From the NCBI RefSeq assembly GCF_027107535.1, contig NZ_CP114283.1:3162001-3226000 (forward strand): a DNA stretch of 64,000 nt, written 5' to 3'. The notes under the pieces are model-generated. The model was given only the letters and a program-made list of their open reading frames with translations. It was not told the origin of the DNA and made no database searches. Made by a program: the position numbers and the translations under genes. Positions 46,657-63,227 of the stretch are shown in pieces. The stretch's first letter is position 1. Every line of letters starts with the position of its first letter. This DNA comes from Streptomyces aurantiacus. Lineage in GTDB: Bacteria > Actinomycetota > Actinomycetes > Streptomycetales > Streptomycetaceae.

Positions 46657-47799
46657 TCAGTGCGGTCGACGGACCTCGCGGAAGTCTGACTTGCGGATCC
46701 TCGCGTGGACGCCCTTCACGTCGTCGACGACCTGGGAGACCGCGAAGTCGCCTGCCGCGCTGAGGTACGCCATCGCCAGATGGCGTTCGATGCCGTAGTC
46801 GGTCACGAGCAGGTCGAGCGCGCAGCGCACGCAGTCGCGCATCGCCTCGTTGAGATCCTTGTCCAGGCCGATGGGCACCAGATAGTCGTCCGTCTCGGCG
46901 AACGGTGCGACGCGCCCGTGGCCGGGCCGCAGAGCCGCGCCGCCCGGCACCACCTCGAGCTTGACGGTGGCGCGCAACGATGCCTCGAACGCGGTCAGGG
47001 CGACCTCGCCGTCGCCCTGAGCGAAGTGCGGGTCCCCGAAGTAGACCAGCGCGTCGTCGACCTGCACCGGGAGGAACAGCGTGGCGCCCTCGCCGAGCAG
47101 GGAGATGTCGATGTTGCCCCCGTGGCGCCCCGGCGGCACCGAGTGCGGTCGCTCGTCCCCGGGCACCGCCACGCCCATCACGCCGAGGAAAGGCCGCAGC
47201 GGGAAGCGGAGTGAGCCGCGGGCGGGGTCCGTCGGATCCACCGCAATCCGGCCCCACGCGCCCTGGTGATCCGCGAGTGCCGTGGCGAAGGTGAAGACAG
47301 GACCGGGCGTCGACGGCATCTCGCCGGGGAGTGCGCCGAAGCCGTGGCGGGCGGAGACCATGCCGTACGGAACCCGTGGGGCGAGGTTGAGGACGGTCAC
47401 CGCGAGCAGATCGCCGGGCCGGGCGCCGGCCACGGCGATCGGCCCGGTGACGAGGTGCGGTCCGTCGTCGTCGAAGTCGTGCGGCATTCCGGAGTCCGCC
47501 ACCTGCTGGGCGTCGTCGAGCACCTGGCTGCCGCCGACGCCGTAACGGCCGAAGAACTCGACCGGGTTGCGGCCCTGGTCCTCGAGCACTCCCTCGTGGC
47601 TGATCGTGTCGACCGTGACGACGGAGCCCGGTCGAACGACGGCGCACGGGGGGTCCGCCTCGCACGGAAGGCGGCCCCACAGGGTGTTCCCCGGCGTGGC
47701 CGGGACGTAGGTCGTCGACGCGATCGCTCCGTGGCCGGGCTGGAGGATCGGGAAGCCGGTGGTGGCGACGTCGAGGAAGGGCGAGTCGATCGCGGTCAT
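46657..47799 (-). CDS. acetamidase/formamidase family protein
   Basis: A 380-residue protein of the FmdA/AmdA amidase family, which releases ammonia from formamide, acetamide or small amides. Seen are TVDTISHEGVLED (about 65-77), GARPGDLLAVTVLNLAPRVPYG (about 127-148), the RHGGNIDISLLGEGATLFLPVQVDDALVYFGDPHFAQGDGEVA region (conserved GGN-D, QGDGE) and a CALDLL/AYLSAAGDFAVSQVVD C-terminal part. The ATG at 47799 is chosen from the family start. It is divergent from a TSUP permease, and it could remove an amide or formyl product of the neighbouring catabolic genes. Confidence 0.92.
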   Translation of the reverse strand: MTAIDSPFLDVATTGFPILQPGHGAIASTTYVPATPGNTLWGRLPCEADPPCAVVRPGSVVTVDTISHEGVLEDQGRNPVEFFGRYGVGGSQVLDDAQQVADSGMPHDFDDDGPHLVTGPIAVAGARPGDLLAVTVLNLAPRVPYGMVSARHGFGALPGEMPSTPGPVFTFATALADHQGAWGRIAVDPTDPARGSLRFPLRPFLGVMGVAVPGDERPHSVPPGRHGGNIDISLLGEGATLFLPVQVDDALVYFGDPHFAQGDGEVALTAFEASLRATVKLEVVPGGAALRPGHGRVAPFAETDDYLVPIGLDKDLNEAMRDCVRCALDLLVTDYGIERHLAMAYLSAAGDFAVSQVVDDVKGVHARIRKSDFREVRRPH

Positions 47800-47941
47800 G
47801 GCCCACCTTTCAGGGAGTGGAAGGGCTGGCCCGACGTTAGGAACGTTGCGTTGCCCCGGTGTTTCCGGTGGGGGTCTGTGCCGTAAAGCTGTCTCGTATG
47901 GCAACATGGCATCTCGCATATGTGCTGCAGAGGAGACCTGG

Positions 47942-48688
47942 ATGGATGTCGGCGACGTTGTTCTCATCGGCGGAGCCGGCCTTGTCGGTGGATTCGTCAA
48001 CTCCATAGCCGGCGGCGGGTCACTGCTCCTCTTCCCCGCGCTGGTCGCCGGCGGGCTGGGTACGGTGGCCGCCAACGTCACCAACTCCGTGGCGCTCTGG
48101 CCGGGCTACCTGGGCAATGTCGCGGCACTGAGGGGGTCTTCCCGCCCGTCTTCCGTCATGTCACTGGCGGTCGTGTCCGCAGTGGGTGCCGCCGCCGGAT
48201 GCGCGCTGCTGCTGCTCACTCCGTCGCGGACCTTCTCGGTCGCGGTGCCGTTCCTCGTCCTCGGCGCCAGTGCGCTCCTCGCCTTCCAGCCCCGGTTGCG
48301 GGCACTGCTCGGCGCCGACGAAGGTGACCATCGCGTCAGGCTCTACGCCGGCACGCTCGCCGGCGCGGTCTACGGCGGTTACTTCGGAGGTGGGCTGGGA
48401 GTCATCCTGATGGCTCTGCTCGGCCTGACGCTGTCCGCTCCGCTGGCCGAAGTGAGCGTACTCAAGGGGACGTTGCAGCTGGTCGTGGCCACCGTGTCGC
48501 TCGTCGTCTTCGCGTTGTTCGGCCCCGTGCACTGGATGATCGCGCTCGTGGTCGCGCCGGCGTCCCTTGTCGGCGGAGTGCTCGGCGGCCGGCTGGCGAC
48601 GAGGCTGAGCGAGCCGGTACTGCGTGCCGCCGTGGTCGGATTCGGCGTACTGGCCGGCGTCTGGCTGGGCATCCGCGCCTTCGGCTGA
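47942..48688 (+). CDS. TSUP/TauE-SafE family permease
   Basis: A 248-residue membrane protein with about eight hydrophobic segments. The repeated TSUP motif is visible twice: VNSIAGGGSLLLFPALVAGGL (about residues 20-40) and GGYFGGGLGVILMALLGL (about 140-157). The family exports sulfite, sulfoacetate or other organic anions. Its place by the acetamidase and P450 suggests removal or uptake of an anionic product, but this is inference. The ATG at 47942 follows AGAGGAGACCTGG. Confidence 0.9.
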   Translation: MDVGDVVLIGGAGLVGGFVNSIAGGGSLLLFPALVAGGLGTVAANVTNSVALWPGYLGNVAALRGSSRPSSVMSLAVVSAVGAAAGCALLLLTPSRTFSVAVPFLVLGASALLAFQPRLRALLGADEGDHRVRLYAGTLAGAVYGGYFGGGLGVILMALLGLTLSAPLAEVSVLKGTLQLVVATVSLVVFALFGPVHWMIALVVAPASLVGGVLGGRLATRLSEPVLRAAVVGFGVLAGVWLGIRAFG

Positions 48689-48733
48689 CCGCTTCCGGAG
48701 ACGGAAGGCCGGGCCGCGCCGGCCCGGCCACGG

Positions 48734-48778
48734 GCGCGGGTCCGACGGCGAACGTCGTGTCCGCTGTCGGACCCGTGC
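48734..48778. terminator. bidirectional terminator hairpin
   Basis: Arms of about 13 bp (GCGCGGGTCCGAC and GTCGGACCCGTGC, one G-U pair) with a 19-nt loop lie between the convergent TSUP permease and P450 genes. Confidence 0.6.
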
Positions 48779-48836
48779 GGCAGCCCGCTGGTGCCGGGCC
48801 GTCGGTCCCCGAACGCCGTCCGTCGGCGAGGACGGC

Positions 48837-51038
48837 TCAGATGTCCAGGACCAGTCGGTCGCCCTGACACCGGCCGACACAGATCATCATCGTGCGCCCG
48901 GCAAGACGTTCCTCGTCGCTGAGTACGGAGTCCCGGTGCTCCGGCGTCCCGGCGAGCACACGGGTCTCGCAGGCACCGCAGTACCCCTTCTCGCAGTCGT
49001 AGGACAGGCCGCTCACGGCGTCGCGCAGGACCTCGATGAGGCGGCGGTCGGCCGGCACGGTGAGCGTGGCTCCCGTACGCGCGAGCTGGACCTCGAAGGT
49101 CCGGTTCTCCGTGGCGTCGAACGCCGTCTCGAGGCCGTCGCCGGCCGTGAAGCGCTCCAGATGCAGCCGGTCGGTGAGATCCAGGCGGGCGCACTCGCGC
49201 TCGACGGCCGCCAGCATCGGCGGCGGCCCGCACGCATAGACGGCGGTGTCCGCGTCCAGCCCGCCCAGCAGCCGGGGAAGGTCGGGCAGCCCGGCCTCGT
49301 CCTGCGGGAGGAGGATGAGCGCGTCGCCGACGACGGCGGACAGCTCGTCGGCGAACGCCATCGTCGAGCGGGTGCGTCCGCCGTACACGACGGAGAAGGG
49401 TGTGCCGCGTCCGGCGGCCGCACGGGCCATGGCGAGGATCGGTGTGACGCCGATGCCGCCGGCGAGGAACAGGTAGGAAGGCGCCGGCACTAGCGGGAAG
49501 TGGTTGCGTGGCCCGCGTACCGCGAAGGTGGCTCCCGGGCGGGCCAGTTCGTGCAGTTCGGCCGATCCGCCCCGGCCCTCGGGCTCGCGCAGGACGCCGA
49601 TGCGCCACGTCGTGGCGTCGGTGGGGTCACCGCAGAGGGAGTACTGACGGAGCCTGCCCGAGGGCAGCCGCACCTCGATGTGCGCGCCGGGCCGCCACGT
49701 GGGGAGTTCGCCGCCGTCCGGCAGGCCGAGGTCGACGGCGACGACATCCTGCGCCGCCGCGCGGACCGCGGTCACCCGCAGCGGGGTCGGCGTGGTCAGC
49801 GCGCGGACCGAGCCGGCCGTGCCACTCGCCCGGGGACCGGGTGTGAAGACCGCCGGGATCGCGTCCCAGCCGGACTGGTTGCCGCGCGTCGGGTAGGCGA
49901 CGAGCCCCTCCTCGATCACCCGGTAGTCGGGCAGCCGGGTCAGTACCTGCGTCATCATCGCGCGGAACATGGCCCGGGCGAGGTGTGCGCCGGCGCACCG
50001 GTGGGAGCCGATGCCGAAGCTGAGATGCCGGCTGGCGTCGCGGTCCAGCCGCACCTGCTCGGGGTCGGGGAACACGGCGGGGTCGTGGTTGGCGGCGACC
50101 CACGGGATCAGCACCCGGTCGCCCGCTCGCATCGGGCAGCCGCCGACCTCGGTGTCCTGGGTGACCGTACGGGCCATCGACTGCGAGGGGGCGAACGCGC
50201 GCAGGAATTCCTCGGTCGCGGTGTCCAGCAGATCGGGGGAGTCGATCAGCCGCTGGCGCTGCTCGGGGTTGCGGGCGAGGTGGACGAGCGTCCATCCGGT
50301 CAGGGAGGTGGTGGTGTCGACGCCGCCGGCGATGAGCAGGCCGATCACCGACACCAGCTCGTCCTCGGCGAACTCGCTGCCGTCGCCGCGCCGGCCGGCC
50401 ACCAGCTCGCTGACCGCGTCGGCCCGTGGCGCCAGCCGGCGCTCGGCGATCAGCTCGCGGATGCGCTGGTCCATGTAGGCCAGTCCGGCGGCCCCGCGCA
50501 CGGCGCGCTCGCTGTCGGCCGGTGCGGCGAAGATGTCGTGGATCGGACCGGCCAGCTTCGCCCAGTCCTCCTCGGGGAAACCGAGCCAGTCCAAGGTCAC
50601 CGCGGCCGGCAGCGGGTTGGTGAGGTCGCGCACGAAGTCGCAGGAGCCGAGCTCGATGAAGTCGTCCACGACGCGGGCGGCATGGCGCTCGATCATGGGC
50701 ACCAGTTGCTCGACCGCCTCCGGGGTCAGCAGCGGGTTGATCAGTTGCCGGTACTCGGTCGAACGCGGCGGGTCGAGCTCGATCGGATACTGATCGAGCC
50801 CCGGTCCCTTGGGGATGACGATGCCGACCCCCTGGCCGCCGTGGTCGCTGCGGGCCGAGGAGAACGTCTCGTCGTCGCGGGCGATGCGGGCCACGTCGGC
50901 ATACCGCGTCGTGTAGGTGAAGCCGCCGTAGGCGGCGGACCGGCCTACCGGGCAGGACTCGCGAAAGCGCGCGTAGTAGGCGACCGGATCGGCGTTGGCC
51001 TCATCGGAGTGGTGATCGAAGTCGATGTCGGCGGACAT
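48837..51038 (-). CDS. self-sufficient cytochrome P450 fused to PFOR-type reductase (CYP116-like)
   Basis: A 733-residue class VII-type fusion. The P450 part (1-400) has the I-helix AGGVDTTTS (237-245), ExxR (277-280) and heme-binding FGIGSHRCAG with Cys348. The reductase part (about 410-733) has the flavin motif RQYSLC (464-469), NAD motif GGIGVTP (527-533), CGPPPM (603-608) and a [2Fe-2S] domain with Cys682, 687, 690 and 720. Such enzymes take electrons from NAD(P)H through FMN and the cluster to the heme without partners, and hydroxylate or dealkylate substrates. The ATG at 51038 is preferred over GTG at 51047. Neighbouring dehydrogenases would oxidise the products. Confidence 0.95.
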   Translation of the reverse strand: MSADIDFDHHSDEANADPVAYYARFRESCPVGRSAAYGGFTYTTRYADVARIARDDETFSSARSDHGGQGVGIVIPKGPGLDQYPIELDPPRSTEYRQLINPLLTPEAVEQLVPMIERHAARVVDDFIELGSCDFVRDLTNPLPAAVTLDWLGFPEEDWAKLAGPIHDIFAAPADSERAVRGAAGLAYMDQRIRELIAERRLAPRADAVSELVAGRRGDGSEFAEDELVSVIGLLIAGGVDTTTSLTGWTLVHLARNPEQRQRLIDSPDLLDTATEEFLRAFAPSQSMARTVTQDTEVGGCPMRAGDRVLIPWVAANHDPAVFPDPEQVRLDRDASRHLSFGIGSHRCAGAHLARAMFRAMMTQVLTRLPDYRVIEEGLVAYPTRGNQSGWDAIPAVFTPGPRASGTAGSVRALTTPTPLRVTAVRAAAQDVVAVDLGLPDGGELPTWRPGAHIEVRLPSGRLRQYSLCGDPTDATTWRIGVLREPEGRGGSAELHELARPGATFAVRGPRNHFPLVPAPSYLFLAGGIGVTPILAMARAAAGRGTPFSVVYGGRTRSTMAFADELSAVVGDALILLPQDEAGLPDLPRLLGGLDADTAVYACGPPPMLAAVERECARLDLTDRLHLERFTAGDGLETAFDATENRTFEVQLARTGATLTVPADRRLIEVLRDAVSGLSYDCEKGYCGACETRVLAGTPEHRDSVLSDEERLAGRTMMICVGRCQGDRLVLDI

Positions 51039-51170
51039 GGTGGGCACGCTCCACGTGCTCGGCCTTCTGCGCGGTGTTGTCCGGCCGCGCCACCGGATGT
51101 CTGGTGCCTCATCGGCGTCGCCACCCTAAGGCGCTGCCGCGGTGTGCGACAACGAAGGGTGGGCGACATC

Positions 51171-52253
51171 TCAGAAGGTCAGCACAGCTTTGCCGACCGA
51201 GCCGGACCGGACCGCCGCGACGGCCTCGTTGATCTGCTCGAACGGGAAGTAGGTGATCATCTTCTCGACCGGAAACCGGCCCTTGGCGTTCAGGTCGAGG
51301 AGCTGGGGCAGGAACACCTGCGGCAGGCTGGACCCGGCGATGATGCCGGTGACGCTGCGCCCGTTGAGGATGCTGCGCCACTCGAAACTCATCGACTCGC
51401 TCGGCCCGATGCCGATGACCCCGGCGCGGCCGAGCGGCCCGAGCGACTCCACCGCGACGCGCAGGACGTCCTCGCGCCCGGTGGTGTCGATGACGAAGTC
51501 GAATCCCTCGGGGACGAGGGCGGCCAGCTGCTCGGCGGCCGGTCCGGCCGAGGAGTCGACCGTGTGCGTGGCGCCGAAGCCGCGGGCCGCCTCCAGCTTG
51601 GCCGGGTTCATGTCGACGGCGGCGACGATCGCGCAGCCGCTCAGTGCGGCCGCGATGATGGCGGCCACGCCGACAGCCCCCGCCCCGAAGACGGCGATCG
51701 ACGAGCCGGGGCGCGGCTGCAGCACGTTGAGCACGCCGCCGGCGCCGGTCTGGAATCCGCAGCCGAAGGGTCCGGCCCGCCGCAAGTCCAGTGAGGGGTC
51801 GATCTTCACGACCGCCCGCTCCGGTGCGACGACGTGGCTGGCGAACGACGACTGGCCCAGGAAGTGGGCGTTGACCTCCCGCCCCTCATGGGTCACGGCG
51901 GTGGAGCCGTCGGGGCGGCGGCCGGAGAAGTTCACGGCGTCGAAGCCGCGGCAGTAGGCGGGCGAGCCGGTGCGGCACAGCGTGCACGAGCCGCACGACG
52001 CGAAGGACATGGTGACGCTGTCGCCCGGGCGTACGGAGGTGACGTGCGCGCCGACCTTCTCGACGATGCCCGACCCCTCGTGCCCGAGCAGCGCCGGCGT
52101 GGGGAAGAAGGTCGCGAACTCGAGGTCGGTGCCGCAGATGCCAACGCCGACGACGCGGACGAGCACCTCGTCGGGACGGGGCTCCTCCAGGTCCACCTCG
52201 GTCAGGACGAATGGCTGTCCGGCTTGCTCCAGCAGAGCGGCGGTGGCGCGCAC
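51171..52253 (-). CDS. zinc-dependent alcohol dehydrogenase (aryl-alcohol type)
   Basis: A 360-residue NAD-dependent MDR enzyme. Catalytic zinc ligands lie in GICGTDLEF (Cys near 39) and LGHEGSGIVEKVG (His/Glu near 58), and the structural zinc Cys cluster in FASCGSCTLCRTGSPAYCRG (about 85-104). The coenzyme motif is VFGAGAVGVAAIIAA (about 190-204), with VDMNPAKLEAARGFGA after strand 2. It resembles benzyl or aryl alcohol dehydrogenases. The start is GTG at 52253. It lies between the P450 gene and a divergent aldehyde dehydrogenase, so P450, alcohol and aldehyde oxidation are likely linked. Confidence 0.94.
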   Translation of the reverse strand: MRATAALLEQAGQPFVLTEVDLEEPRPDEVLVRVVGVGICGTDLEFATFFPTPALLGHEGSGIVEKVGAHVTSVRPGDSVTMSFASCGSCTLCRTGSPAYCRGFDAVNFSGRRPDGSTAVTHEGREVNAHFLGQSSFASHVVAPERAVVKIDPSLDLRRAGPFGCGFQTGAGGVLNVLQPRPGSSIAVFGAGAVGVAAIIAAALSGCAIVAAVDMNPAKLEAARGFGATHTVDSSAGPAAEQLAALVPEGFDFVIDTTGREDVLRVAVESLGPLGRAGVIGIGPSESMSFEWRSILNGRSVTGIIAGSSLPQVFLPQLLDLNAKGRFPVEKMITYFPFEQINEAVAAVRSGSVGKAVLTF

Positions 52254-52284
52254 CAGGCCTCCTGTAGTGACTCACATAGCGAGA

Positions 52285-52292
52285 TCGCATAT
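52285..52292. promoter_or_regulatory. TCGCATAT motif between divergent dehydrogenase genes
   Basis: TCGCATAT lies in the 73-base gap between the alcohol and aldehyde dehydrogenase genes. The same octamer occurs at 47914-47921 before the TSUP gene. It is a candidate half-site for the local regulator, though chance is not excluded. Confidence 0.3.
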
Positions 52293-52326: not shown

Positions 52327-53772
52327 ATGGCTGCTGTTGACTTCCCTTCTTCCCAGCACTTCATCGACGGCGAGTGGGTCGCGGCCCGTGACGGCGGCAC
52401 CCTGGACATCGTCGATCCGGCCACGCGGCAGGTGATCACCAAGGTGGCACTGTCGGGCGGAGCCGATGTCGACGACGCGGTCGCCGCGGCGCGCCGCGCC
52501 TCCCCTGCCTGGGCTGTGACCAACCCCAGCGAGCGCGGGACGCTGATCCGGCGCTGGGCCGACCTGATCCTCGCCGACGTCGAGGCGCTGGCCGCCGTAG
52601 AGGCGAGGGACGTGGGCAAGCCGCTGTCCGGGGGCCGGACGAACATCTACATCGCCCACGACATCGTCAACTACTTCGCGGGCGCGGCCGACAAGCTCAC
52701 CGGGGTCACGCTGCCGACACGCAGCCCCGACTACCTGGGCTACACGGTGCCCGAGCCGTACGGCGTGTGCGCCGTCGTCATCCCGTGGAACGTGCCGGCC
52801 GTGCTCATGGCCGCGAACGTCGCGCCGGCGCTCGCCGCGGGCAATACGGTCGTCCTCAAGCCGTCCGAGATCGCACCGCTGACCCCGTTCGCACTCGTCG
52901 AACTCGCCCGCCGCGCCGGCTTCCCGCCCGGGGTGCTCAACGTCGTCGCGGGCGGCCCCGAGGCGGGCGCCGCACTGACCTCGCACCCGGGCGTCGACCA
53001 CATCAGCTTCGTCGGCTCCACCGCCACCGGGCGGGCGATCATGACGGCCGCCGCGCAGAACCTCGTCCCGGTGAAGCTCGAACTCGGCGGCAAGTCGCCG
53101 AACGTGCTGTTCGCCGACGCCGACCTCGACACGGCGATCGAAGCGGTCGTCGCCTCGATCACCGAGAACGCGGGGCAGAACTGCTACGCCGGTTCCCGGC
53201 TGCTCGTCGAGGCCTCGGTGCACGACGAGGTCGTGGAGCGGGTCGCCGCCGCCATGGCCGCGATCAAGACGGGGCCCTGGGACGCCGACCTGGACATGGG
53301 ACCGCTGGTCAGCGCCGCGCAGTTCGCCCGCGTCAGCGGCTTCCTCCAGGACGCCCCTCGCGAGGGCGCGCGGCTGGTCACCGGTGGCGCGCCCACCGGC
53401 GACGGATGGTTCGTCCAGCCGACCGTGTACGACGGTGTGGACGCGGGCATGCGCGTCGCCCGCGAGGAGGTCTTCGGCCCGGTTCTCGCCGTCCAGTCCT
53501 TCCGTGACACGGCCGAGGCGACCCAGCTGATGAACGCGACGGACTTCGGCCTGCTGGCCTGCATCTGGACCAACGACGTCTCCCGGGCGCTGCGGCTGGC
53601 GAAGGACGTCCGCTCCGGGCAGGTGGCGGTCAACCAGTTCCACGACGCGGGAGTGATCGGCTTTCCGTTCAACATGCAGAAGGACAGCGGCTTCAGCCGG
53701 GGCGGCGGGTACGGGGCGCTGCGCGAGTACACCCAGGAGAAGGGCGTGGCCATCCGGTTGTTGGCCCGCTGA
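52327..53772 (+). CDS. NAD(P)-dependent aldehyde dehydrogenase
   Basis: A 481-residue ALDH. Seen are the N-terminal FIDGEWVAARDGGTLDIVDPAT, VIPWNVPAVLMAANVAPALAAGNTVVLKPSE (NAD site, about 155-185), the general base Glu in VKLELGGKSPNVLF (near 255) and the nucleophile Cys in ENAGQNCYAGSRLL (near 289). The C-terminal motif FGPVLAVQSF is present. It starts with ATG at 52327, and the PucR gene begins 11 bases after its stop, so both are in one operon. It would oxidise an aldehyde made by the P450 or alcohol dehydrogenase. Confidence 0.95.
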   Translation: MAAVDFPSSQHFIDGEWVAARDGGTLDIVDPATRQVITKVALSGGADVDDAVAAARRASPAWAVTNPSERGTLIRRWADLILADVEALAAVEARDVGKPLSGGRTNIYIAHDIVNYFAGAADKLTGVTLPTRSPDYLGYTVPEPYGVCAVVIPWNVPAVLMAANVAPALAAGNTVVLKPSEIAPLTPFALVELARRAGFPPGVLNVVAGGPEAGAALTSHPGVDHISFVGSTATGRAIMTAAAQNLVPVKLELGGKSPNVLFADADLDTAIEAVVASITENAGQNCYAGSRLLVEASVHDEVVERVAAAMAAIKTGPWDADLDMGPLVSAAQFARVSGFLQDAPREGARLVTGGAPTGDGWFVQPTVYDGVDAGMRVAREEVFGPVLAVQSFRDTAEATQLMNATDFGLLACIWTNDVSRALRLAKDVRSGQVAVNQFHDAGVIGFPFNMQKDSGFSRGGGYGALREYTQEKGVAIRLLAR

Positions 53773-55229: not shown

Positions 55230-55253
55230 ACGGCAAAGGTGAGGAGGGCCGCG

Positions 55254-56285
55254 GTGCGAGCGATGGTGCAGACCGATTTCGGGGGAACCGAAGTCGTGTC
55301 TCCGCAGGACATCCCGGAGCCGGTGTGCGGTGCGCGCGATGTCGTCGTCGAGGTCGCGTACTGCGGGCTGAACCGCCTGGACCTGCTGCAGCGCAAGGGG
55401 CCCGGTCTGATCCCCGGCTTCCGTCTTCCCCACGTACCGGGCATGGACTTCGCCGGAACGGTGGTGGCGACCGGATCCGCGGTCAGCTCCATAGTCCCAG
55501 GCGACCGGGTCGTCGCCGACCCCACCCAGGGCTGCGGGAGCTGTCCACGTTGCTCGGTGGGCGATCGCGCGTACTGCGTCAGCCCGCGCATCCTCGGCGG
55601 CAACATCCCGGGCGCGCTGGCCGAATACGTCCTGGCGTCCGCCGAATCGATCGTACGGGTCCCCAAGTCGGTGTCGCTCGACGAGGCCGTCACCCTGCCC
55701 ACCGCCTTCGCGACGGCATGGCACGCGGTACACAGCGTCGGAGCACTGGACGCCGGTGAGACCTTCGTGGTGCACGCGGCCGCGAGTCCTGTCAGCCTGG
55801 CGGCCATCGCGCTGGCCAAGCAGGCCGGTGCCTCGGTCGTCGCGTTCGCGGGCAGCGACGCGAAGCTGGCCGCGGCCCGCGCGGCCGGCGCGGACCTGGC
55901 CCTGCGCAACGACGAACCGGATCCGGCGAAAGCGGTGACCGCCTTCACCGACGGCGCCGGCGCGCACCTGGTCCTGGACCACGTCGGCACCGGCACCTGG
56001 CGCACCTCACTGGACTGCCTCGGCATCCGCGGGCGACTGGTGCTGCTGGGCAACACCAGCGGCGACCAGGTCTCCTTCTCACTGAGAGAGGTCTTCCACC
56101 GTGGCCTGAAACTGCTGGGCGCCGGGGGCTACACCTCGGCCGACTTCGTCGCCGCCACCTCGGCCTGTTTCGCCGACGGCCTGCACCTTCCCACCGCCGC
56201 CCGCTTCCCGCTCGATGATCTCGCCGACGCCTGGGACGTGCTCGGCGCCCGCGACACCATAGGAAAGGTCGTGATCACGCCATGA
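55254..56285 (+). CDS. zinc-binding alcohol dehydrogenase family protein
   Basis: A 343-residue MDR protein. Seen are FGGTEVVSPQDIPEPVCGARDVVVEVAYCGLNRLDLLQ at the N-terminus, the HVPGMDFAGTVVATG block, a structural-zinc-like Cys cluster in QGCGSCPRCSVGDRAYC (about 88-104), and a Rossmann segment VVHAAASPVSLAAIALAKQAGA (AxxSPVS, an unusual form of GxGxxG). The usual catalytic-zinc Cys is replaced (YCGLNRLDL), so zinc catalysis is doubtful. GTG at 55254 is chosen for its AGGAGGG leader; GTG at 55239 and ATG at 55263 are alternatives. It is the first gene of the importer operon. Confidence 0.88.
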   Translation: MRAMVQTDFGGTEVVSPQDIPEPVCGARDVVVEVAYCGLNRLDLLQRKGPGLIPGFRLPHVPGMDFAGTVVATGSAVSSIVPGDRVVADPTQGCGSCPRCSVGDRAYCVSPRILGGNIPGALAEYVLASAESIVRVPKSVSLDEAVTLPTAFATAWHAVHSVGALDAGETFVVHAAASPVSLAAIALAKQAGASVVAFAGSDAKLAAARAAGADLALRNDEPDPAKAVTAFTDGAGAHLVLDHVGTGTWRTSLDCLGIRGRLVLLGNTSGDQVSFSLREVFHRGLKLLGAGGYTSADFVAATSACFADGLHLPTAARFPLDDLADAWDVLGARDTIGKVVITP

Positions 56286-57661
56286 GCGACCTGCTCATCG
56301 TGGGGGGCGACATCGTCACCATGGACTCCGCACGGCGGGTCCTCACCGGCGCGACGATCGCCGTGTCCGGGGACAGCATCGCCGCACTCGGCACCACCGA
56401 GGACCTGCGCGCCCGTTTCCCGGACGCGAGAGAGATCGACGCGACGGGCTGTGTCGTCATCCCGGGCCTCGTCGACGCCCACCAGCACACGACCGTCGAC
56501 CCCCTCGTACGCAGCACGATCCCGGACCACATCAGCTCGCAGGAGTCGATCTTCGATTGGATCGTCCCGCTGCACGCCCACGCCGACGGTGACGACGACG
56601 AACTCGCGGCGACAATCACCGCCGTCGAGTGCCTGTCCCGGGGCATCACCACCGTGCTGGAACCGGGCACGGTGGCCTACCCGGAACGGGTCGCCGCCGG
56701 GCTGGCCGCCGCGGGGATCCGCGCCCGGGTCGGCGGCTGGGGCTGGGACGCCGAGGGCGTGCCGTTCGGCGCACCCGCCGACGAGGTGCTCGCCCGGCAG
56801 GAGGACATCGTCAAGTCCCTGCCGGCCACCGGGCCGGTCACCGGATGGGTGACACTCGTCGGCCACGACCTCGCCAGCGACGAACTCTTCACCGGAGCGG
56901 CGAACCTGGCCGAGCGGCTCGACACCGGACTGACCTGGCACGTCTCGCCCGGGCCCGCCGACATCGAGGCCTACGCCCAGCGTTGCGGGCGCCGGCCGGT
57001 GGTCCACTTCGGAGAACTGGGCGTACTCGGCCCGCGCCTGCTGCTGGGGCACGCCGTGTGGCTCGACGACGCCGAGGTCGACGCGATCCTTGACACCCGT
57101 ACCGCCGTCGCCGCCTGCCCGGGGGCCTACCTGCGCCTCGCCCAGGGCTACACCCGCGCCTCGCGCCACGCCGAGCTGGTGCGCAGGGGAGGCAGGGTGG
57201 CCCTGGGCTGCGACGCCCACAACGCCGGCGACGCCCCGGACATCCTCCTGGCCGCCTATCTGTTCGCCGGCCTCGAACGCGACCGTGACCTGCCCGACCC
57301 CATCCGCGCCGAGCAGGCGTTCGCGCTCGCGACGGTCGACGGCGCCGAAGCGGTCGGTCTGGGCGGGCGGACCGGCTCCCTGGAGGTCGGCAAGGCCGCC
57401 GACCTCGTCGTACTCGACACCAGCGACCCCGCCTGGATGCCGCGGGGCGACCTGGCCCGCCAGCTCGTCTGGGGCCACGTGTCGCGCACCGTCCGTGACG
57501 TGCTGGTCGACGGCCGCGTGGTCGTCCGCGACCGGCAGCCGACCGGCATCGACCTCACCGCCGTAGCCGAGGCCGCCGCCGAGCGGTCCGCCGCCCTCCT
57601 GCGGCGCGCCGGCATCAAGCCCCGCCCGACCTGGCCGACAGAGCCGGCGGGCACCCCGTGA
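56282..57661 (+). CDS. amidohydrolase of the ATZ/TRZ/8-oxoguanine deaminase type
   Basis: A 459-residue metal-dependent hydrolase of subtype III. Seen are the first metal-binding motif GLVDAHQHTTVD (HxH, about 62-73), a third metal His in WHVSPGPADIE, another in GHAVWLDDAEVDAI and the final Asp in VALGCDAHNAGDAPDILLA (about 314-332). This set belongs to chlorohydrolases, guanine/8-oxoguanine deaminases and melamine deaminase relatives. It overlaps the previous gene by four bases (ATGA) and is followed by a flavin reductase-like gene. Hydrolytic removal of an amino or similar group from a heterocycle is the likely reaction. Confidence 0.92.
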   Translation: MSDLLIVGGDIVTMDSARRVLTGATIAVSGDSIAALGTTEDLRARFPDAREIDATGCVVIPGLVDAHQHTTVDPLVRSTIPDHISSQESIFDWIVPLHAHADGDDDELAATITAVECLSRGITTVLEPGTVAYPERVAAGLAAAGIRARVGGWGWDAEGVPFGAPADEVLARQEDIVKSLPATGPVTGWVTLVGHDLASDELFTGAANLAERLDTGLTWHVSPGPADIEAYAQRCGRRPVVHFGELGVLGPRLLLGHAVWLDDAEVDAILDTRTAVAACPGAYLRLAQGYTRASRHAELVRRGGRVALGCDAHNAGDAPDILLAAYLFAGLERDRDLPDPIRAEQAFALATVDGAEAVGLGGRTGSLEVGKAADLVVLDTSDPAWMPRGDLARQLVWGHVSRTVRDVLVDGRVVVRDRQPTGIDLTAVAEAAAERSAALLRRAGIKPRPTWPTEPAGTP

Positions 57662-57674
57662 AGGAGACCACCCG

Positions 57675-58343
57675 TTGAACGTCATCGACATGTCAGGACG
57701 CTCCCCGGCACAGAAGCAGGGCCTGCTCTCACAACTGGTGGTACCGCGGCCGATCGCGATGATCACCACACTCGACCCGGACGGAGGGGTCAACGTCGCG
57801 CCGTACAGCTACTACATGCCGGTCAGCGGCGAGCCCCCGCTGATCGCCGTCACCATCGGCGCCCAGCGGGAGGCGACCCGTGAGCCGAAGGACACGTGGC
57901 TCAACATCGAGCGCACGGGCGAGTTCGTCGTCAACGTCACCACCGCCGAGATCGCCGAGCACATCGAGGCGGTGGCCCGCGAATACCCTCGCGGTGTCAG
58001 CGAGATGGACGTCGCCGACTGGCGATCGGTGCCCTCACAGGTCGTCGACACGCCGTCGCTGGCCGACAGCCCCGCGCACCTGGAGTGCCGGGTGCACGAG
58101 GTGATCGACCGCGGCGACCACACCTCCTGCTTCTCGGGCGTGCACATCGTCCTCGCCGAGGTCGTCTGCATCACCACCGACGACTCGCTCATGTCCGCCC
58201 CGGGCCGCGTCGACCCCACCCGGGTCCGAGCGGTCGGGCGGATGGGCTTCCCGTGGTTCGTCGCCGCGGGGGAGGAGTCCATCTTCCACCAGGCGCGTGT
58301 CTCCTACGCCGAGCTCGACCGGGCCGACCGGTCCGCCAACTGA
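57675..58343 (+). CDS. flavin reductase-like domain protein
   Basis: A 222-residue protein of the FMN-binding split-barrel (Flavin_Reduct) family. Seen are VVPRPIAMITTLDPDGGVNVAPYSYYMPVSGEPPLIAVTIG (about 18-58) and a WLNIERTGEFVVNVTTAEIAEHIEAVA segment (about 75-101), then LECRVHEVIDRGDHTSCFSGVHIVLAEV (about 137-165). TTG at 57675 has an AAGGAG leader and is chosen over ATG at 57690. It may supply reduced flavin, or bind flavin to act on its own. No monooxygenase partner other than the P450 fusion is in the window. Confidence 0.9.
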   Translation: MNVIDMSGRSPAQKQGLLSQLVVPRPIAMITTLDPDGGVNVAPYSYYMPVSGEPPLIAVTIGAQREATREPKDTWLNIERTGEFVVNVTTAEIAEHIEAVAREYPRGVSEMDVADWRSVPSQVVDTPSLADSPAHLECRVHEVIDRGDHTSCFSGVHIVLAEVVCITTDDSLMSAPGRVDPTRVRAVGRMGFPWFVAAGEESIFHQARVSYAELDRADRSAN

Positions 58344-58353
58344 CCCACTCCCC

Positions 58354-58408
58354 GCAAAGTCCCCCCGCGAAGTCACCCCCCCCGCGAAGTCACTCCCTCC
58401 GAAGTCAC
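58354..58408 (+). repeat. iterated GAAGTCAC elements before the importer operon
   Basis: Three copies of GAAGTCAC (58369-58376, 58386-58393, 58401-58408) and a degenerate AAAGTC copy (58356-58361) lie at 15-17-base spacing in the gap between the flavin reductase and substrate-binding protein genes. They could be binding sites for a regulator or part of an mRNA structure. Confidence 0.55.
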
Positions 58409-58454
58409 CACCGCCTCCACAGGGCGGTGCCACCCAGCGAACGGAACCGCAGAC

Positions 58455-59546
58455 ATGACTGCAGGCAGATCTCTCTGGCGTAGTAGGGCGGCGCTCGGCC
58501 TCGCCCTCACAGGAGCCCTCGCGCTCTCCGGCTGCGCCAGCAACGACGCGACGGCACCCAAGGCGACCGCCGCGGCCACTGGCGGCAGCGGCGGATCGGG
58601 CCTCAACGAGCCCGACGTCAACGGCGACGGCAAGGTCGTCATCGGTGTCCTCAGCCCCGGTGACATCAACGACCGCGGCTACTACGAGAGTTTCGTCGAC
58701 TCGGCGGACGCCTACGCCAAGGAGAAGAGCTGGACGGTCATCAAGCGCGGCAGCGTGCCCGCGAGCGACGCGCTCAGCGCCGCCCGCGCGCTGTGCCAGC
58801 AGCACGTCGACATGGTCGCGCTCGCCGCGAGTGAGCTCAAGGCCGCCATCCCGGCCTCCGAGGAGCCGGTCTGCGCCAAGACCGCCTGGTACGTGCCGTC
58901 GTCGGCGAACATCGACCAGACCCCGCGGATCATGCTGTCCTCCGACAACCCCAACCAGTCGATGCTCGCCGCCGGCTACGCCGCGGGCCTGAAGATGAAG
59001 GCGGGCGGCTACACCAAGGCCGGATTCGTCACCGGCATCAAGGCCGACTTCAGTGTCCTGGGAGCGAAGGCATTCCTCGCCGGTATCCGGGAGGTCGTCC
59101 CCAAGGCCACCCTGGTGAGCACCTACACCGGTGACTTCAACGACTCGGCGAAGGCCAAGGAAGCCATCCAGGCCCAGATCAGCCAGGGTGCCAAGGTCAT
59201 CTACCCCTACCTCGGGGGCGCGACCGACGCCGCGGCGCAGGTGGCGAACGCGAGCGGCGTGCTGACCCTCACTCCGGGCACCGACCGGTGCGCCTCGACC
59301 AGCCCGAAGTTCGACATCTCGGTGATCTTCAGCCCGGGTGACTACTTCCGGGCCGCGCTGGAGGACTTCGCCAAGGACGACCTGAAGATGGGCACGCCGC
59401 GCGTGTGGCAGCTGGGCGTCGACCCCTACCCGACCATCAAGATCTGCAAGGGCCAGGGCGACGAGGACCAGCGGCTGGCGGAGTTCATGAAGAAGATCGG
59501 CAACAAGGAGATCGACCCGGAGGCCGAGGTCAAGCGCCTCGGCTGA
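58455..59546 (+). CDS. BMP-family ABC transporter substrate-binding lipoprotein
   Basis: A 363-residue lipoprotein. The signal MTAGRSLWRSRAALGLALTGALALSGCAS ends in the lipobox LSGC, with Cys near residue 27. The mature part reads as the BMP/PnrA-like fold: KVVIGVLSPGDINDRGYYESFVDSAD, TPRIMLSSDNPNQSMLAAGYAAGLKMK, and IYPYLGGATDAAAQVANASGVLTLTPGTDRC. BMP proteins bind nucleosides or related compounds; a Thr-rich pocket and the Asp in SPGDINDRGYY fit a polar ligand. It is the first gene of the importer operon. Confidence 0.93.
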   Translation: MTAGRSLWRSRAALGLALTGALALSGCASNDATAPKATAAATGGSGGSGLNEPDVNGDGKVVIGVLSPGDINDRGYYESFVDSADAYAKEKSWTVIKRGSVPASDALSAARALCQQHVDMVALAASELKAAIPASEEPVCAKTAWYVPSSANIDQTPRIMLSSDNPNQSMLAAGYAAGLKMKAGGYTKAGFVTGIKADFSVLGAKAFLAGIREVVPKATLVSTYTGDFNDSAKAKEAIQAQISQGAKVIYPYLGGATDAAAQVANASGVLTLTPGTDRCASTSPKFDISVIFSPGDYFRAALEDFAKDDLKMGTPRVWQLGVDPYPTIKICKGQGDEDQRLAEFMKKIGNKEIDPEAEVKRLG

Positions 59547-59584
59547 CCGACCGTGCCGACACCGACCCAGGAGATTCACACGCG

Positions 59585-61141
59585 ATGACACCGACGACCT
59601 CAGCGGCCCGGATCCTCGAGCTGCGTGGCATCACCAAGTCCTACGGGTCCGTCACGGCCTGCGACGCCGTGGACCTCACCGTCGACGCCGGCGAGATCCA
59701 CGGTCTCCTGGGCGAGAACGGGGCGGGCAAGTCCAGTCTCATGAAGGTTCTGCTCGGACTGATCCGGCGCGACGCCGGCACCGTGCTGGTGCGCGGTGAA
59801 CAGGTCGCGCTGGACAGCCCGCAGGAGGCGGCCGAGCTGGGCATCGGCATGGTGCACCAGCACTTCAGCCTCATCAACGGGCTCACCGTGTGGGAGAACG
59901 TCGCACTCGGCGACACCGGCGCGGTGAACAAGCAGGCCATCTGCGCCGACATCGCCGAGGTCGCCGCGCGGTACGGGCTGCCGGTCGACCCCGAGGCGCG
60001 CGTCGACGCGCTCTCGGCGGGCGAGCGGCAGCGCGTCGAGGTGGTCAAGTGTCTGCGGCGCAACCCTCAGATCCTGATCCTCGACGAGCCCACCTCGGTG
60101 CTGACCCAGGCCGAGTCGCAGGAGCTGTTCGCCGTGCTCGGCCGGGTGGTGCAGGAGGAGGGCCGCGCCGTCATCCTCATCAGCCACAAGCTCGCCGAGA
60201 TCGTGCAGGCCACGGACCGGGTGACGGTCCTGCGCAAGGGCGCTGTCGCCTTCCGGGCGGTCACCGCCGAGACCACCGCGCCGGAACTGGCCCGCCAGAT
60301 GGTGGGCCGTGACGTGTCGCTGCACGAGGAGGGAGCCGCCCTCGGCCTGCTGCCGGTCGACACGACCCGCACGGGCCGGGGCGGGGCCCACGACCGGCCC
60401 CCGCCCGTCCTGAGCCTGGCCGGGCTCACCGTCGAAAAGGGCGGGGTGAAGGTTCTTCAAGGAGTCGACCTGACCGTGGGCGAGGGCGAGATCTGCGCCC
60501 TCTACGGCGTCGAGGGCAGCGGCCAGGCGACGCTCGGCGAAGTCCTCGCCGGGCTGGTCCCGCCGACCACCGGCACCATCGAGGTCGCCGGCCGCAGGGT
60601 CGACGTGACCCGGCCCGGCGCGCTCGGAAAGGCCGGTCTCGGCATCGTGCCGGAGGACCGGCATCAAAGCGGCGTCGTCCTCGACATGAGTGTCACCGAA
60701 AACCTGACGATGAAGTCGCTCGACAAACTCAGCGGCCGGTTCCTGCTGCGCCGGAGCGCGATGCACGCCGAGGCCCGTCGCCTCGCGGACGAGTTCAACA
60801 TCAGCGCGCCCTCGCTCGACGCGCCGCTGCGCAGCCTCTCCGGAGGCAACCAGCAGCGCGTCGTACTCGCCCGGGAACTGTCAGGTCACACCAGCGTCCT
60901 GGTGGCCGCGCAGCCCACCCACGGGCTGGACGTCGGCGCCATCGAGGACATGTACGCCCGGCTGCGCGGGGCGGCCGCGGACGGCGTCGGAGTGCTGCTC
61001 ATCTCCACCGAACTCGAGGAAGTCATGGCCCTTGCAACCTGGATCGCGGTGATCTCGTCCGGGCGGATCACCGGAGCCCTCCCCGTCTCGGAGGCGACTC
61101 CCGAGCGACTGGGCATGCTGGTCGGCGGTGAGGCCGCATGA
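59585..61141 (+). CDS. ABC transporter ATP-binding protein with two ABC domains
   Basis: A 518-residue double ATPase of the nucleoside/BMP importer kind. Domain 1 has Walker A GENGAGKSS (about 42-50), signature LSAGERQRVEV and Walker B ILILDEPTSVL. Domain 2 (about 275-518) has GVEGSGQAT in place of Walker A (no Lys), signature LSGGNQQRVVLAREL and AAQPTHGLD in place of Walker B (no Glu). Such a degenerate second domain is normal for this family. The ATG overlaps a GAGATTCACACGCG leader, and the permease gene overlaps its stop by four bases. Confidence 0.95.
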   Translation: MTPTTSAARILELRGITKSYGSVTACDAVDLTVDAGEIHGLLGENGAGKSSLMKVLLGLIRRDAGTVLVRGEQVALDSPQEAAELGIGMVHQHFSLINGLTVWENVALGDTGAVNKQAICADIAEVAARYGLPVDPEARVDALSAGERQRVEVVKCLRRNPQILILDEPTSVLTQAESQELFAVLGRVVQEEGRAVILISHKLAEIVQATDRVTVLRKGAVAFRAVTAETTAPELARQMVGRDVSLHEEGAALGLLPVDTTRTGRGGAHDRPPPVLSLAGLTVEKGGVKVLQGVDLTVGEGEICALYGVEGSGQATLGEVLAGLVPPTTGTIEVAGRRVDVTRPGALGKAGLGIVPEDRHQSGVVLDMSVTENLTMKSLDKLSGRFLLRRSAMHAEARRLADEFNISAPSLDAPLRSLSGGNQQRVVLARELSGHTSVLVAAQPTHGLDVGAIEDMYARLRGAAADGVGVLLISTELEEVMALATWIAVISSGRITGALPVSEATPERLGMLVGGEAA

Positions 61142-62316
61142 GTGCCGCCTCGCTGACGGACGGGGACGACCTCGCCCGGCGCTTCCTCGCCCGGCTTCGG
61201 CCCGGGCGCGACGGCTGGATGACGGCGGGCCTGACCGCCGTACTGGTCGCCGTCGCCGCGGGCGCCTCCGCGCTGCTGCTCGTACTGACCGGTGGCTCGC
61301 CTAGTGCTTCGGCGGACGCGATATGGACCGGAAGTCTGGCCGACGCGACGGGATGGACGACGACGCTCCTCAACACGGCGCCGTTGCTGCTGGTCGCGGT
61401 CGGTGCGTGCGTCTGCGCGTCGGCCGGCACGTTCAACATCGGCCAGGAGGGACAGGTCCTCATCGGCGGCCTGGTCGGAGCATGGGTCGGGCTGCGGCTG
61501 GCCGTGCCCGGCCCGACGCTGGTCGTCGTGGTGCTGGTCGCCGCGGCCGTCGGCGGTGGCGCCTGGGCCGCGCTCAGCGCGGTGATGCTCCGCCTGCGCG
61601 GCGTCAACGTCCCGGTGAGCACCCTGCTGATGACGTTCCTCGCCATCCAGCTCGTCACGTTCGCGGTCAGCACGCCGTGGCTGCAGGAGAGCGCGCAGGG
61701 CTCCTCGGGCATCACCGACGCGGCGTCCAACCCCCTGCCGGCAGGCGCCCGGCTCGGCGGCTTCGGGCAGTACCCGTCGGTGCAGTGGAACATCGGCCTG
61801 TTCATCGCCCTCGTCGCCGCTGTCGGTGTCGCCGTGGTCCTCACCCGCAGCCGGTGGGGCTTCAGGGTGCGCATGCTCGGACTGAACCCGCTGACCGCCA
61901 AGCACACCGGAGTGAGGGTGGCCGCGCTCGGCGGCTTCGCCCTGGCACTGTCCGGAGCCTTCGCGGGGCTGGCTGGCGGGCTGCTGCTGGTCAGCCCGGT
62001 CGGCACCAACCGCCTGCAGGCCGGGCTCTCGGACAACTTCGGCTGGGACGGTCTGCTCGTCGCGCTCGTCGCACGCAACCGGCCCCTGGTCGCGATCCCG
62101 GTGTCGCTGGTGTTCGCCGTACTGCGCGCGGGCGGCGATTTCCTCTCCGCCACGGGCGTGCCGTACTACCTCGTCGATGTCGTCAAAGCACTGCTGGTCC
62201 TCGCGTTCGTCGCGCCTCCCGTGCTCGTCGATCTTTTCCGCCGGCGTCGCGGTGCCACACCGCGGGCGACGCCCGGCCTGTCCGTAGTCCCGACCAAGGT
62301 GAAGGCAGCCGCGTGA
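61138..62316 (+). CDS. ABC transporter permease (BMP/nucleoside type), subunit 1
   Basis: A 392-residue permease with about ten hydrophobic segments, a long cytoplasmic N-terminus, and the family motif GTFNIGQEGQVLIGGLVGAWVG (about 98-119; consensus GxxNIGxEGxx). Further along are FRVRMLGLNPLTAKHTGV, the coupling-helix region contacting the ATPase. Its ATG overlaps the ATPase stop by four bases (ATGA), and the second permease overlaps its stop in the same way (GTGA). Confidence 0.94.
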   Translation: MSAASLTDGDDLARRFLARLRPGRDGWMTAGLTAVLVAVAAGASALLLVLTGGSPSASADAIWTGSLADATGWTTTLLNTAPLLLVAVGACVCASAGTFNIGQEGQVLIGGLVGAWVGLRLAVPGPTLVVVVLVAAAVGGGAWAALSAVMLRLRGVNVPVSTLLMTFLAIQLVTFAVSTPWLQESAQGSSGITDAASNPLPAGARLGGFGQYPSVQWNIGLFIALVAAVGVAVVLTRSRWGFRVRMLGLNPLTAKHTGVRVAALGGFALALSGAFAGLAGGLLLVSPVGTNRLQAGLSDNFGWDGLLVALVARNRPLVAIPVSLVFAVLRAGGDFLSATGVPYYLVDVVKALLVLAFVAPPVLVDLFRRRRGATPRATPGLSVVPTKVKAAA

Positions 62317-63227
62317 GCGTTCTGGACAGCACCACCACCATTCTCGCCAGCGGTGTCCGGCTGACCGTGCCTCTGGCGTTCGCCGCCTGCGGTGAGTACG
62401 TGGCCGAGCGCGCCGGCACGATGAACATCTCCGTCGAGGCGATGATGCTCGGCGCCGCGTTCACCTCGATCGCCACCGCGAGCGCGACCGGCAGCGCCAC
62501 CGCCGGCCTCGTGGCGGGCGTCGTGACGGGCCTCGTTCTCGGCTTCACGCACGGCAACCTCTCCCACCGGGCACAGATCAATACTTTCGTCGTCGGCCTG
62601 GTGCTGAACGCGCTGGTGCTCGGGCTGACGAGCTACCTGATCACGACGAACGAGTTCGTCTCGCACCAGGTAGACGTGTTGTCGATCCCGCTGCTGCAGG
62701 ACATCCCCCTCCTCGGCAAGCCGCTGTTCTCCGAACGCTGGCCGGCCTTCCTGCTGTTCGCGCTGGTGCCGCTCACCTGGTGGCTGGTGGAGCGTAGCCG
62801 CTGGGGCCTGGAACTGCGGGCGGTGGGGGAGAACCCTCAGGCCGCCGACGTCACGGGCATCAAGGTGAACATGCGGCGCCGGCAGGCTCTGCTGTGGGCC
62901 GGCGCTCTGGCCGGTCTCGGTGGCGCCTACCTCGCGGTCGGCGAGGTCGGATCGTTCAACCAGAACATGACCGCCGGGCGCGGATACCTCGTCATCGCCG
63001 CCGTGATCTTCGGGGCGTGGCGGCTCGGCCGGACCATGCTCGGCTGCCTGGTCTTCGGCCTCTCCGACGCGATGCGCCTGGCGCTCCCGGCACTCGGCGT
63101 CACCCTCAACGCCCAGCTGCTCGTCGCGGCCCCGTACCTCCTGGCGCTGCTGGCCATGCTCCTGTTCGCCACGCAACACCGGGAACCCGGCGCGCTCGGC
63201 CGTCCCTTCGAGCGTGGGTCGACGTGA
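62313..63227 (+). CDS. ABC transporter permease (BMP/nucleoside type), subunit 2
   Basis: A 304-residue permease with about nine hydrophobic segments. The motif GTMNISVEAMMLGAAFTSIA (about 30-49) and the coupling region WGLELRAVGENPQAADVTGI (about 166-185) match the second subunit of BMP importers. The GTG at 62313 overlaps the previous stop. A 20-bp-stem hairpin 16 bases after its stop ends the operon. Confidence 0.94.
   Translation: MSVLDSTTTILASGVRLTVPLAFAACGEYVAERAGTMNISVEAMMLGAAFTSIATASATGSATAGLVAGVVTGLVLGFTHGNLSHRAQINTFVVGLVLNALVLGLTSYLITTNEFVSHQVDVLSIPLLQDIPLLGKPLFSERWPAFLLFALVPLTWWLVERSRWGLELRAVGENPQAADVTGIKVNMRRRQALLWAGALAGLGGAYLAVGEVGSFNQNMTAGRGYLVIAAVIFGAWRLGRTMLGCLVFGLSDAMRLALPALGVTLNAQLLVAAPYLLALLAMLLFATQHREPGALGRPFERGST

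Follow-up and report, generated by a model that had tools for sequence, protein, structure and literature searches.

What is degraded by a locus that joins a self-sufficient cytochrome P450, an ATZ/TRZ-like amidohydrolase and a complete BMP-type ABC importer? The question is raised by a stretch of 64,000 nucleotides of Streptomyces aurantiacus (the window, as used here, is this whole stretch), which covers positions 3162001-3226000 of contig NZ_CP114283.1 in a genome of about 9.9 Mb; the closest named relatives of the locus are from Streptomyces. An earlier note on this DNA had read positions 46657 to 63227 as a single locus by which a nitrogen heterocycle is taken up, oxidised by the P450, passed through an aldehyde dehydrogenase step and hydrolysed. 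In kind this was right, and all gene families that it named are present at or near the positions given there (Pfam). Judging from sequence comparisons, these genes quite probably form the left half of a lum-type locus that breaks down lumichrome or a closely related flavin and has an alternative module for ring opening and uptake. Its assignment to the lum type is strongly supported, while we infer the exact substrate and the replacement chemistry. Coordinates are in window numbering unless stated otherwise, and numbers preceded by G or L label genomes and loci of this analysis.

Lumichrome is a breakdown product of vitamin B2 and is said to be a soil signal to plants and bacteria; its degradation by a 25-gene lum operon of Nocardioides simplex was reported in 2025 (PMC12746152; commentary in PMC12752717). 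As described in the main text of that report, LumU, a single-chain P450 that includes all redox domains, takes the 7-methyl group of lumichrome to a carboxylate, the last two of its oxidations being also possible by LumT and LumN. The pyrimidine ring is degraded by LumH, LumI and LumM, with decarboxylation by LumK/L and hydroxylation by LumJ; the remaining rings are opened by LumA-D and LumE, and LumW, LumY and LumX lead to pyruvate and acetoacetate. The genes lumOPQR were assigned as transport-related, and pathway variants may exist according to the authors (PMC12746152). By family, LumH and LumI are hydantoinase-type/isochorismatase-type hydrolases, LumJ is a molybdenum hydroxylase and LumK/L a split thiamine decarboxylase.

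Reference genes came from Nocardioides-like genomes. A 16S-type pattern matched 3 of 69 genomes. These three belong to a single family, and among the 341 genomes of that family which were then searched, 53 match the P450 query at E ≤ 1e-90, only 8 of them with a full-length match of 59-60%. Gene order around these eight genes fits the lum letters A-Y; the whole run is seen in G1087 and G1162, while the remaining six show sections of it, the neighbourhoods of two of them being covered only in part. The lum assignment of the reference genes follows from operon order and masses, assuming that the letters follow gene order, and not from published sequences. For G1162, masses in kDa (value of the paper in brackets) are 49.5 (49) for LumC, 46.3 (46) for LumE, 23.5 (24) for LumI, 139.4 (140) for the two frames of LumJ, 52.5 (52) for LumM, 81.1 (81) for LumU, 40.2 (40) for LumW and 27.3 (26) for LumX, and 1-4 kDa below the paper for LumA (34.6 (38)), LumB (12.6 (14)), LumD (19.9 (23)), LumK (18.1 (20)), LumL (19.5 (23)) and LumY (14.0 (16)). 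An extra ABC transporter set, for which the 25-gene operon has no letters, lies between LumM and LumN in G1162, G1064, G1130 and G1016.

Compared with the Nocardioides-like operon, the S. aurantiacus counterparts of LumA to LumF are 68, 75, 81, 70, 77 and 55% identical, those of LumN (aldehyde dehydrogenase, ALDH), LumU, LumV, LumW, LumX and LumY 61, 58, 67, 77, 64 and 73%, and the IclR regulator 72%. Among the enzymes by which membership of the lum pathway is judged, LumU, LumA-E and LumW/Y/X have counterparts here; LumH-M are treated below. The two systems share the fused P450, ALDH, LumA-F, LumV-Y, IclR and a four-gene BMP importer, at 35-81% identity, and gene order is kept within the blocks IclR-A-B-C-D-E-F and V-W-X-Y. 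In contrast to the lum operon, the blocks are arranged otherwise here, the positions of LumM and LumT are taken by a non-orthologous amidohydrolase (AmiH) and zinc alcohol dehydrogenase (ADH1), and loci of this type have an additional zinc-binding oxidoreductase (MDR2), VOC, SnoaL and TauD-type proteins, and often an FmdA-type amidase and an aldo/keto reductase (AKR). For FmdA, the TSUP permease, PucR, both flavin reductases, AKR, VOC, SnoaL, the CoA transferase and TauD, no match was found in the lum set. The earlier note knew of no described pathway with exactly this set. For the complete set this is correct, but the P450, the ALDH and the four importer genes, roughly half of the window genes, correspond to genes of an operon that has been described (PMC12746152).

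The P450 and its partner dehydrogenases

The P450 aligns with Nocardioides-like LumU over 740 columns, and its predicted mass is 79.3 kDa, compared with 81 in the paper. In a 40-row tree, eight LumU rows fall inside the window-type P450s, grouped with those of five Actinomadura and Microtetraspora with support 97/98; the tree is midpoint-rooted and, with a long LumU branch, this nesting is less certain than the grouping. The 11 next-best fused P450s of the Nocardioides-like family form a separate set. The protein is thus a predicted lumichrome 7-methyl monooxygenase which, by homology to the N. simplex enzymes, would oxidise the ring methyl group, and ADH1 and ALDH would be able to take the resulting alcohol via the aldehyde to the acid. 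A second, distinct group of fused P450-reductases, 36-42% identical to the window P450, was encountered in loci L129-L140 (family of G433).

The earlier note had called the P450 CYP116-like and had inferred that an alkylated nitrogen heterocycle, such as a purine alkaloid or a triazine-like compound, is dealkylated oxidatively. As to domain layout, the name is justified: the best full-length PDB match is CYP116B46 (6laa), and as in that enzyme the P450 continues into a phthalate-dioxygenase-reductase-type module of the same polypeptide; the fused reductase has the NAD-binding and 2Fe-2S parts of the CYP116 type. The heme domain, in contrast, does not fall in the CYP116 family; taken alone it is nearest to CYP125, CYP130, CYP142 and P450cin (PDB search), and CYP116B46 is absent among the best 60 of 76 heme-domain matches at E ≤ 1e-40. 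Other features would suit a dealkylation, namely the fold of AmiH near AtzA and TrzN, that of the substrate-binding protein near AtzT and, in relatives of the locus that lack the P450, a Rieske protein close to SxtDIOX and NdmA. However, the P450 groups with LumU, its partner genes fit methyl oxidation and ring cleavage, and the P450, ALDH and most downstream enzymes are counterparts of lumichrome-pathway enzymes, with the P450 there taking a ring methyl group to the carboxylate. A CYP116 dealkylase was thus rejected, and we regard both dealkylation and a purine alkaloid or triazine substrate as hardly credible. Sugars, pterins, cytokinins and methylated purines were further substrate classes that were provisionally considered and then set aside.

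ADH1 scores highest in the PDB against a zinc alcohol dehydrogenase (5tnx, 298 bits) and benzyl alcohol dehydrogenase (1f8f, 290 bits), followed by class I (223 bits) and class III (about 181 bits) alcohol dehydrogenases. That its best named relative is benzyl alcohol dehydrogenase agrees with methyl oxidation, and its affinities together with the presence of ALDH suggest oxidation of a methyl group instead of dealkylation; ADH1 is predicted to perform the step from hydroxymethyl to formyl. A role as class III or mycothiol-type formaldehyde dehydrogenase, which would point to formaldehyde release, was considered and rejected, because NCBIfam scores are far under the cut-offs and benzyl alcohol dehydrogenase scores much higher. 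That these loci retain the P450-ADH-ALDH trio is relevant to the question of why there should be a LumN and a LumT at all.

Conservation across actinobacterial genomes

A scan with AmiH yielded 39 loci, 28 of which (L009-L036) contain a close relative (at least 53% identity). P450, ADH1 and ALDH occur together in 18 of these 28; in L024 the contig ends before these genes. The earlier note had proposed to look for the same gene order in other actinobacteria, and the set indeed recurs in several genera and is no chance neighbourhood: P450 and ADH divergent from ALDH, then MDR2, AmiH and the importer, an order kept in Streptomyces, Actinomadura, Microtetraspora and Micromonospora and rearranged in Trujillonella. 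AmiH, an MDR2-type gene and the importer are found without the P450 in Frankia, Pseudofrankia, Spongiactinospora, one of two S. uncialis loci and some metagenome-assembled genomes.

AmiH (E ≤ 1e-60) is present in 9 of 396 sampled genomes of the phylum, S. aurantiacus among them; 7 of the 9 do not belong to the class, and in several genomes two AmiH types coexist. Among 394 genomes of the class, again with S. aurantiacus, the P450 (E ≤ 1e-150) and a LumE-like protein (E ≤ 1e-50) occur in three each, and these are the same three (Fisher P about 1e-7, relatedness ignored). Both proteins are present in 22 and neither in 14 of 36 genomes, 35 of which were reached via AmiH and one (G570) via the P450 (P 2.6e-10, relatedness ignored). 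In the order to which G570 belongs, a P450 of this type is found in 1 of 166 genomes, G570 itself.

With S. aurantiacus, 23 genomes have both genes, and 18 loci were assembled around them, so that P450 and LumE-like protein are present in 18 of 18 by choice; left out were G880, G885, G887 and G894, whose two genes lie on different contigs, and G906. Counting matches of at least 45% identity, ALDH, permease 2, VOC, FAH, the second amidohydrolase (AmiH2), cupin, IclR and both Rieske subunits are present in all 18 loci, AmiH, BMP, ATPase, permease 1, SnoaL and HpcH in 17, and MDR2, TauD and ADH1 in 16, the ADH1 of G879 and G888 having been missed by the gene caller and found by tblastn (L009, L018). 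Less frequent are the LumF-like protein (13), reductase and ferredoxin (12 each), FmdA (11), AKR (9), PucR (7), CoA transferase (5), TSUP and FlvR (4 each) and the second flavin reductase, FlvR2 (3). Among plasmids, no named catabolic plasmid was found; one large Streptomyces record matched: close copies of AmiH (89.5%) and BMP (83%) lie at 663499-666227 of the 1.51 Mb plasmid record NZ_CP108854.1 of Streptomyces sp. NBC_00841, and the locus may thus travel on large replicons.

Ring-opening genes, amidohydrolase module and importer

The largest difference from the published pathway concerns LumH-M. In the fetched stretches of the 18 loci, tblastn gave no match to LumH, LumI, LumJ, LumK or LumL at E ≤ 1e-10 and for LumM only matches at the level of paralogues, the best three at 30-32%. 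S. aurantiacus has no LumM orthologue: AmiH is 27% identical, and the best value is 31% among 8 of its own amidohydrolase loci compared, of 22 matches in the genome. LumL was sought in 31 whole genomes, the 8 Nocardioides-like ones and the 23 with P450 and LumE-like protein, and is present in all 8 of the former (in one in pieces). Of the five Actinomadura, four encode it at 51-54% identity, outside the P450-type locus. Matches in the remaining 19 genomes are weak (best E 1.8e-15, 34%), and one of these genomes has none at E ≤ 0.001; the best in the whole S. aurantiacus genome (1.7e-10, 29% over 181 residues) is on another contig. Streptomyces, Micromonospora, Microtetraspora, Trujillonella, A. 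latina and G570 thus seem to be devoid of LumL. Elsewhere in the S. aurantiacus genome, five places encode molybdenum hydroxylases, with 29-33% identity to LumJ over the longest stretches and up to 37% over shorter ones, and 13 thiamine-enzyme matches are in frames of at least 348 aa, unlike the 195-aa LumL. Small proteins of P450-less loci were considered as molybdenum hydroxylase subunits and rejected, since by eye their sequences are of VOC, GntR, cupin and hydantoinase A types.

AmiH has a fold of the adenosine-deaminase/AtzA type. ATZ/TRZ aminohydrolases have a catalytic Glu in an HxxE motif. AmiH differs from these enzymes and from the adenosine and isocytosine deaminase group (4f0s, 7ww2, AtzA 4v1x, TrzN 3ls9) in having Pro for this Glu: the motif is HxxP, with P223 in 34 of 34 AmiH-A and 13 of 13 AmiH-B rows (47 of 49 rows, two of less than 400 aa being excluded), and LumM has Ser at this position in the 6 of 6 rows printed. 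MDR2-type genes lie near AmiH also in loci without the P450. Such P450-less relatives (L064-L067, L071, L027, L028, L031, L035) often contain a second AmiH type, an O-methyltransferase-like protein and various Rieske oxygenases, that of L066 near SxtDIOX/NdmA and that of L027 near carnitine monooxygenase; AmiH thus seems to pair with different oxygenases. In the AmiH loci L025, L029, L030 and L032, an FGGY sugar kinase, an extra MDR dehydrogenase and a class I aldolase-type protein were noted, as for a sugar or polyol side chain.

The role proposed for the module formed by AmiH, MDR2, VOC, SnoaL and TauD and fed by the BMP importer would be to convert the carboxylated flavin to the quinoxaline-type Rieske substrate, replacing LumH-L. 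By homology, the Rieske, extradiol and LumW/Y/X counterparts would then open the remaining rings to pyruvate and acetoacetate, and in some genomes a CoA transferase pair beside the locus could activate these products. Both CoA transferase subunits of S. aurantiacus exceed curated cut-offs as 3-oxoacid CoA transferases, which agrees with acetoacetate as product. A further proposal is tentative and falls somewhat short of probable: the module would represent a second route for dismantling the flavin ring, doing the work of LumH-M without molybdenum hydroxylase or thiamine decarboxylase in Streptomyces, Micromonospora, Microtetraspora, Trujillonella and one Actinomadura, and the Nocardioides operon would have arisen later, by exchange of the AmiH module for lumH-M. 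The position of LumU inside the window-type P450s and the existence of four Actinomadura with both gene sets suggest the latter. In these four (G888, G890, G891, G906; L159-L163) counterparts of LumH, LumI, LumJ, LumK, LumL and LumM with 49-69% identity form separate sets with an IclR gene, together in three genomes and in G888 as J-M only, the contig ending at LumJ; the sets adjoin a different ABC transporter.

The identity of the Rieske alpha subunit to LumC leads us to expect the same substrate at this step, whereas the greater divergence of the early proteins (P450, ALDH and importer, the latter 35-55%, compared with Rieske alpha, LumE and LumW) leaves room for a different entry compound. 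The same A-ring pathway might thus serve riboflavin or another dimethyl-benzo heterocycle, such as lumiflavin or alpha-ribazole/dimethylbenzimidazole, with AmiH, MDR2, VOC, SnoaL and TauD handling the other ring and the ribosyl or ribityl part. This would be in line with the presence of lumH-M in the four Actinomadura and with the older Pseudomonas route, in which opening of the C-ring precedes removal of the ribose (PMC12746152, main text). The importer resembles the BMP/PnrA-type importers of nucleosides and riboflavin in the fold of its substrate-binding protein and in its full four-gene set, but its BMP protein is less than 20% identical to the solved members listed. Nearest in fold is 4p98, a substrate-binding protein, followed by PnrA, Lbp, BmpD and AtzT; nucleoside binders are near the top and riboflavin-binding RfuA is at rank 21, the search leaving nucleoside, purine and flavin binders unseparated. 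A pfkB/ribokinase-type gene lies within or at the edge of 5 of the 18 loci (L087:2828-3763, minus strand; G893, G884, G903, G896), at most a hint of a ribosylated flavin; the G204 copy scores 263 bits as ribokinase, the cut-off being 300. However, the P450 groups with LumU, no ribokinase-type gene of this cluster is present in 13 of the 18 loci as far as their stretches extend, and no riboflavin monooxygenase (RcaE) was recognised, although no sequence search for RcaE was made. Uptake of such another compound is therefore unlikely in our view, though it deserves to be kept in mind beside lumichrome or a close derivative.

Several observations weigh against a lumichrome locus with a replacement module. 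The mass of LumH in G1162 is 50.1 kDa, compared with 80 in the paper, which is unexplained, and the LumU branch has a length of 0.52. Beyond the low identity of AmiH to LumM, ADH1 is only 30% identical to LumT, of which there is no orthologue, and the importer proteins reach only 35 (BMP), 49 (ATPase), 37 (permease 1) and 55% (permease 2) against the lumO/P/Q/R positions. The search of all 23 genomes beyond the loci was confined to LumL, that for LumH, LumI and LumK to the locus stretches. As four Actinomadura carry the AmiH module plus, elsewhere, lumH-M, the module may do something other than replace LumH-M. Finally, AmiH-type genes, many with a BMP importer, are found also in the 14 of 36 genomes without P450 and LumE, and the lum-type locus of G902 (S. 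uncialis) is without close AmiH or SnoaL; it has a second AmiH type and an MDR2 paralogue, and the close AmiH of this genome sits elsewhere (L032). The last two points, together with the other oxygenases beside some AmiH genes and the lack of a close AmiH in the Nocardioides-like operons, would also be expected if two units were neighbours by chance, the lum A-ring pathway and an unrelated uptake and amidohydrolase pathway. However, a chance arrangement should not persist as does the lum-type set, in which AmiH and SnoaL occur in 17 and VOC in 18 of 18 loci from five named genera, and without the AmiH module the Streptomyces loci show no path from lumichrome to the Rieske substrate. Two unrelated units are thus quite improbable.

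The pathway type has been known since 2025, while the arrangement without lumH-L and with an AmiH module appears to be new with respect to the literature searched, mostly titles and the beginnings of abstracts, which at this level contained nothing fitting on CYP116 with an amidohydrolase or on BMP with Rieske and hydantoinase. The words Streptomyces and Actinomadura are absent from the main text of PMC12746152, to which this statement is limited. If our interpretation is correct, lumichrome breakdown would be spread over several more actinobacterial genera including Streptomyces, compared with one Nocardioides reported (PMC12746152), and would point to a different ring-opening chemistry with named candidate genes.

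Gene content and surroundings of the locus

The genes of the window that belong to the locus or adjoin it are listed below. The MDR2 and AmiH genes overlap by 4 bases, and the TSUP permease is probably peripheral to the locus.

Table 1. Genes of the catabolic locus within the window
Gene product	Position	Strand	Basis and remarks
FmdA/AmdA-type amidase (acetamidase/formamidase family)	46657..47799	-	PF03069, 96 bits; without counterpart in the lum set
TSUP (TauE/SafE) permease	47942..48688	+	PF01925; start codon picked by eye
Self-sufficient P450 (heme, reductase, 2Fe-2S), LumU counterpart	48837..51047	-	Pfam P450, NAD_binding_1 and Fer2; 736 aa
ADH1, zinc alcohol dehydrogenase	51171..52253	-	PDB comparison; zinc MDR protein
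Aldehyde dehydrogenase, LumN counterpart	52327..53772	+	PF00171
PucR/CdaR-type regulator	53784..55010	+	PF13556 (HTH_30)
MDR2, zinc-binding oxidoreductase	55239..56285	+	Pfam
AmiH, COG0402-type (ATZ/TRZ-like) amidohydrolase	56282..57661	+	Amidohydro_1
FlvR, flavin reductase-like protein, optional	57675..58343	+	PF01613 (Flavin_Reduct)
BMP-type substrate-binding lipoprotein	58455..59546	+	PF02608
Importer ABC ATPase	59585..61141	+	PF00005, two ABC_tran stretches
ABC permease 1	61138..62316	+	PF02653 (BPD_transp_2)
ABC permease 2	62313..63227	+	PF02653 (BPD_transp_2)
Aldo/keto reductase (AKR), continues past the window end	63308..64000	-	PF00248

The extent assumed in the earlier note, 46657 to 63227, is adequate for the genes it contains, but its right end is not that of the locus, whose last recurrent gene, encoding the TauD-type dioxygenase, ends at 81851, beyond the window and about 19 kb to the right of 63227. 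To the right, AKR is followed by VOC, SnoaL, the second flavin reductase, FAH (LumV), AmiH2 (LumW), the HpcH aldolase (LumX) and the cupin (LumY), then by IclR, an FNR reductase (LumA), ferredoxin (LumB), Rieske alpha and beta (LumC/D), the extradiol enzyme (LumE), the LumF-like protein, CoA transferase A and B, and TauD. The LumE counterpart is a Dabb-glyoxalase (extradiol) protein, and the LumF-like protein has no Pfam match; the counterparts of LumA-D and LumE lie at contig positions 3234941-3239594. Just past the right end of the locus, two overlapping frames on the minus strand (L070:8788-9872) resemble an IS630-type transposase by eye. Within the window, 35764-44176 may be a further catabolic stretch, with alpha/beta hydrolases, TetR regulators, an MDR reductase, an enoyl-CoA hydratase-like protein and an SDR protein, and 18033-22632 contains the biotin synthesis genes bioD, bioA, bioB and a bioF-like gene, both assigned by eye.

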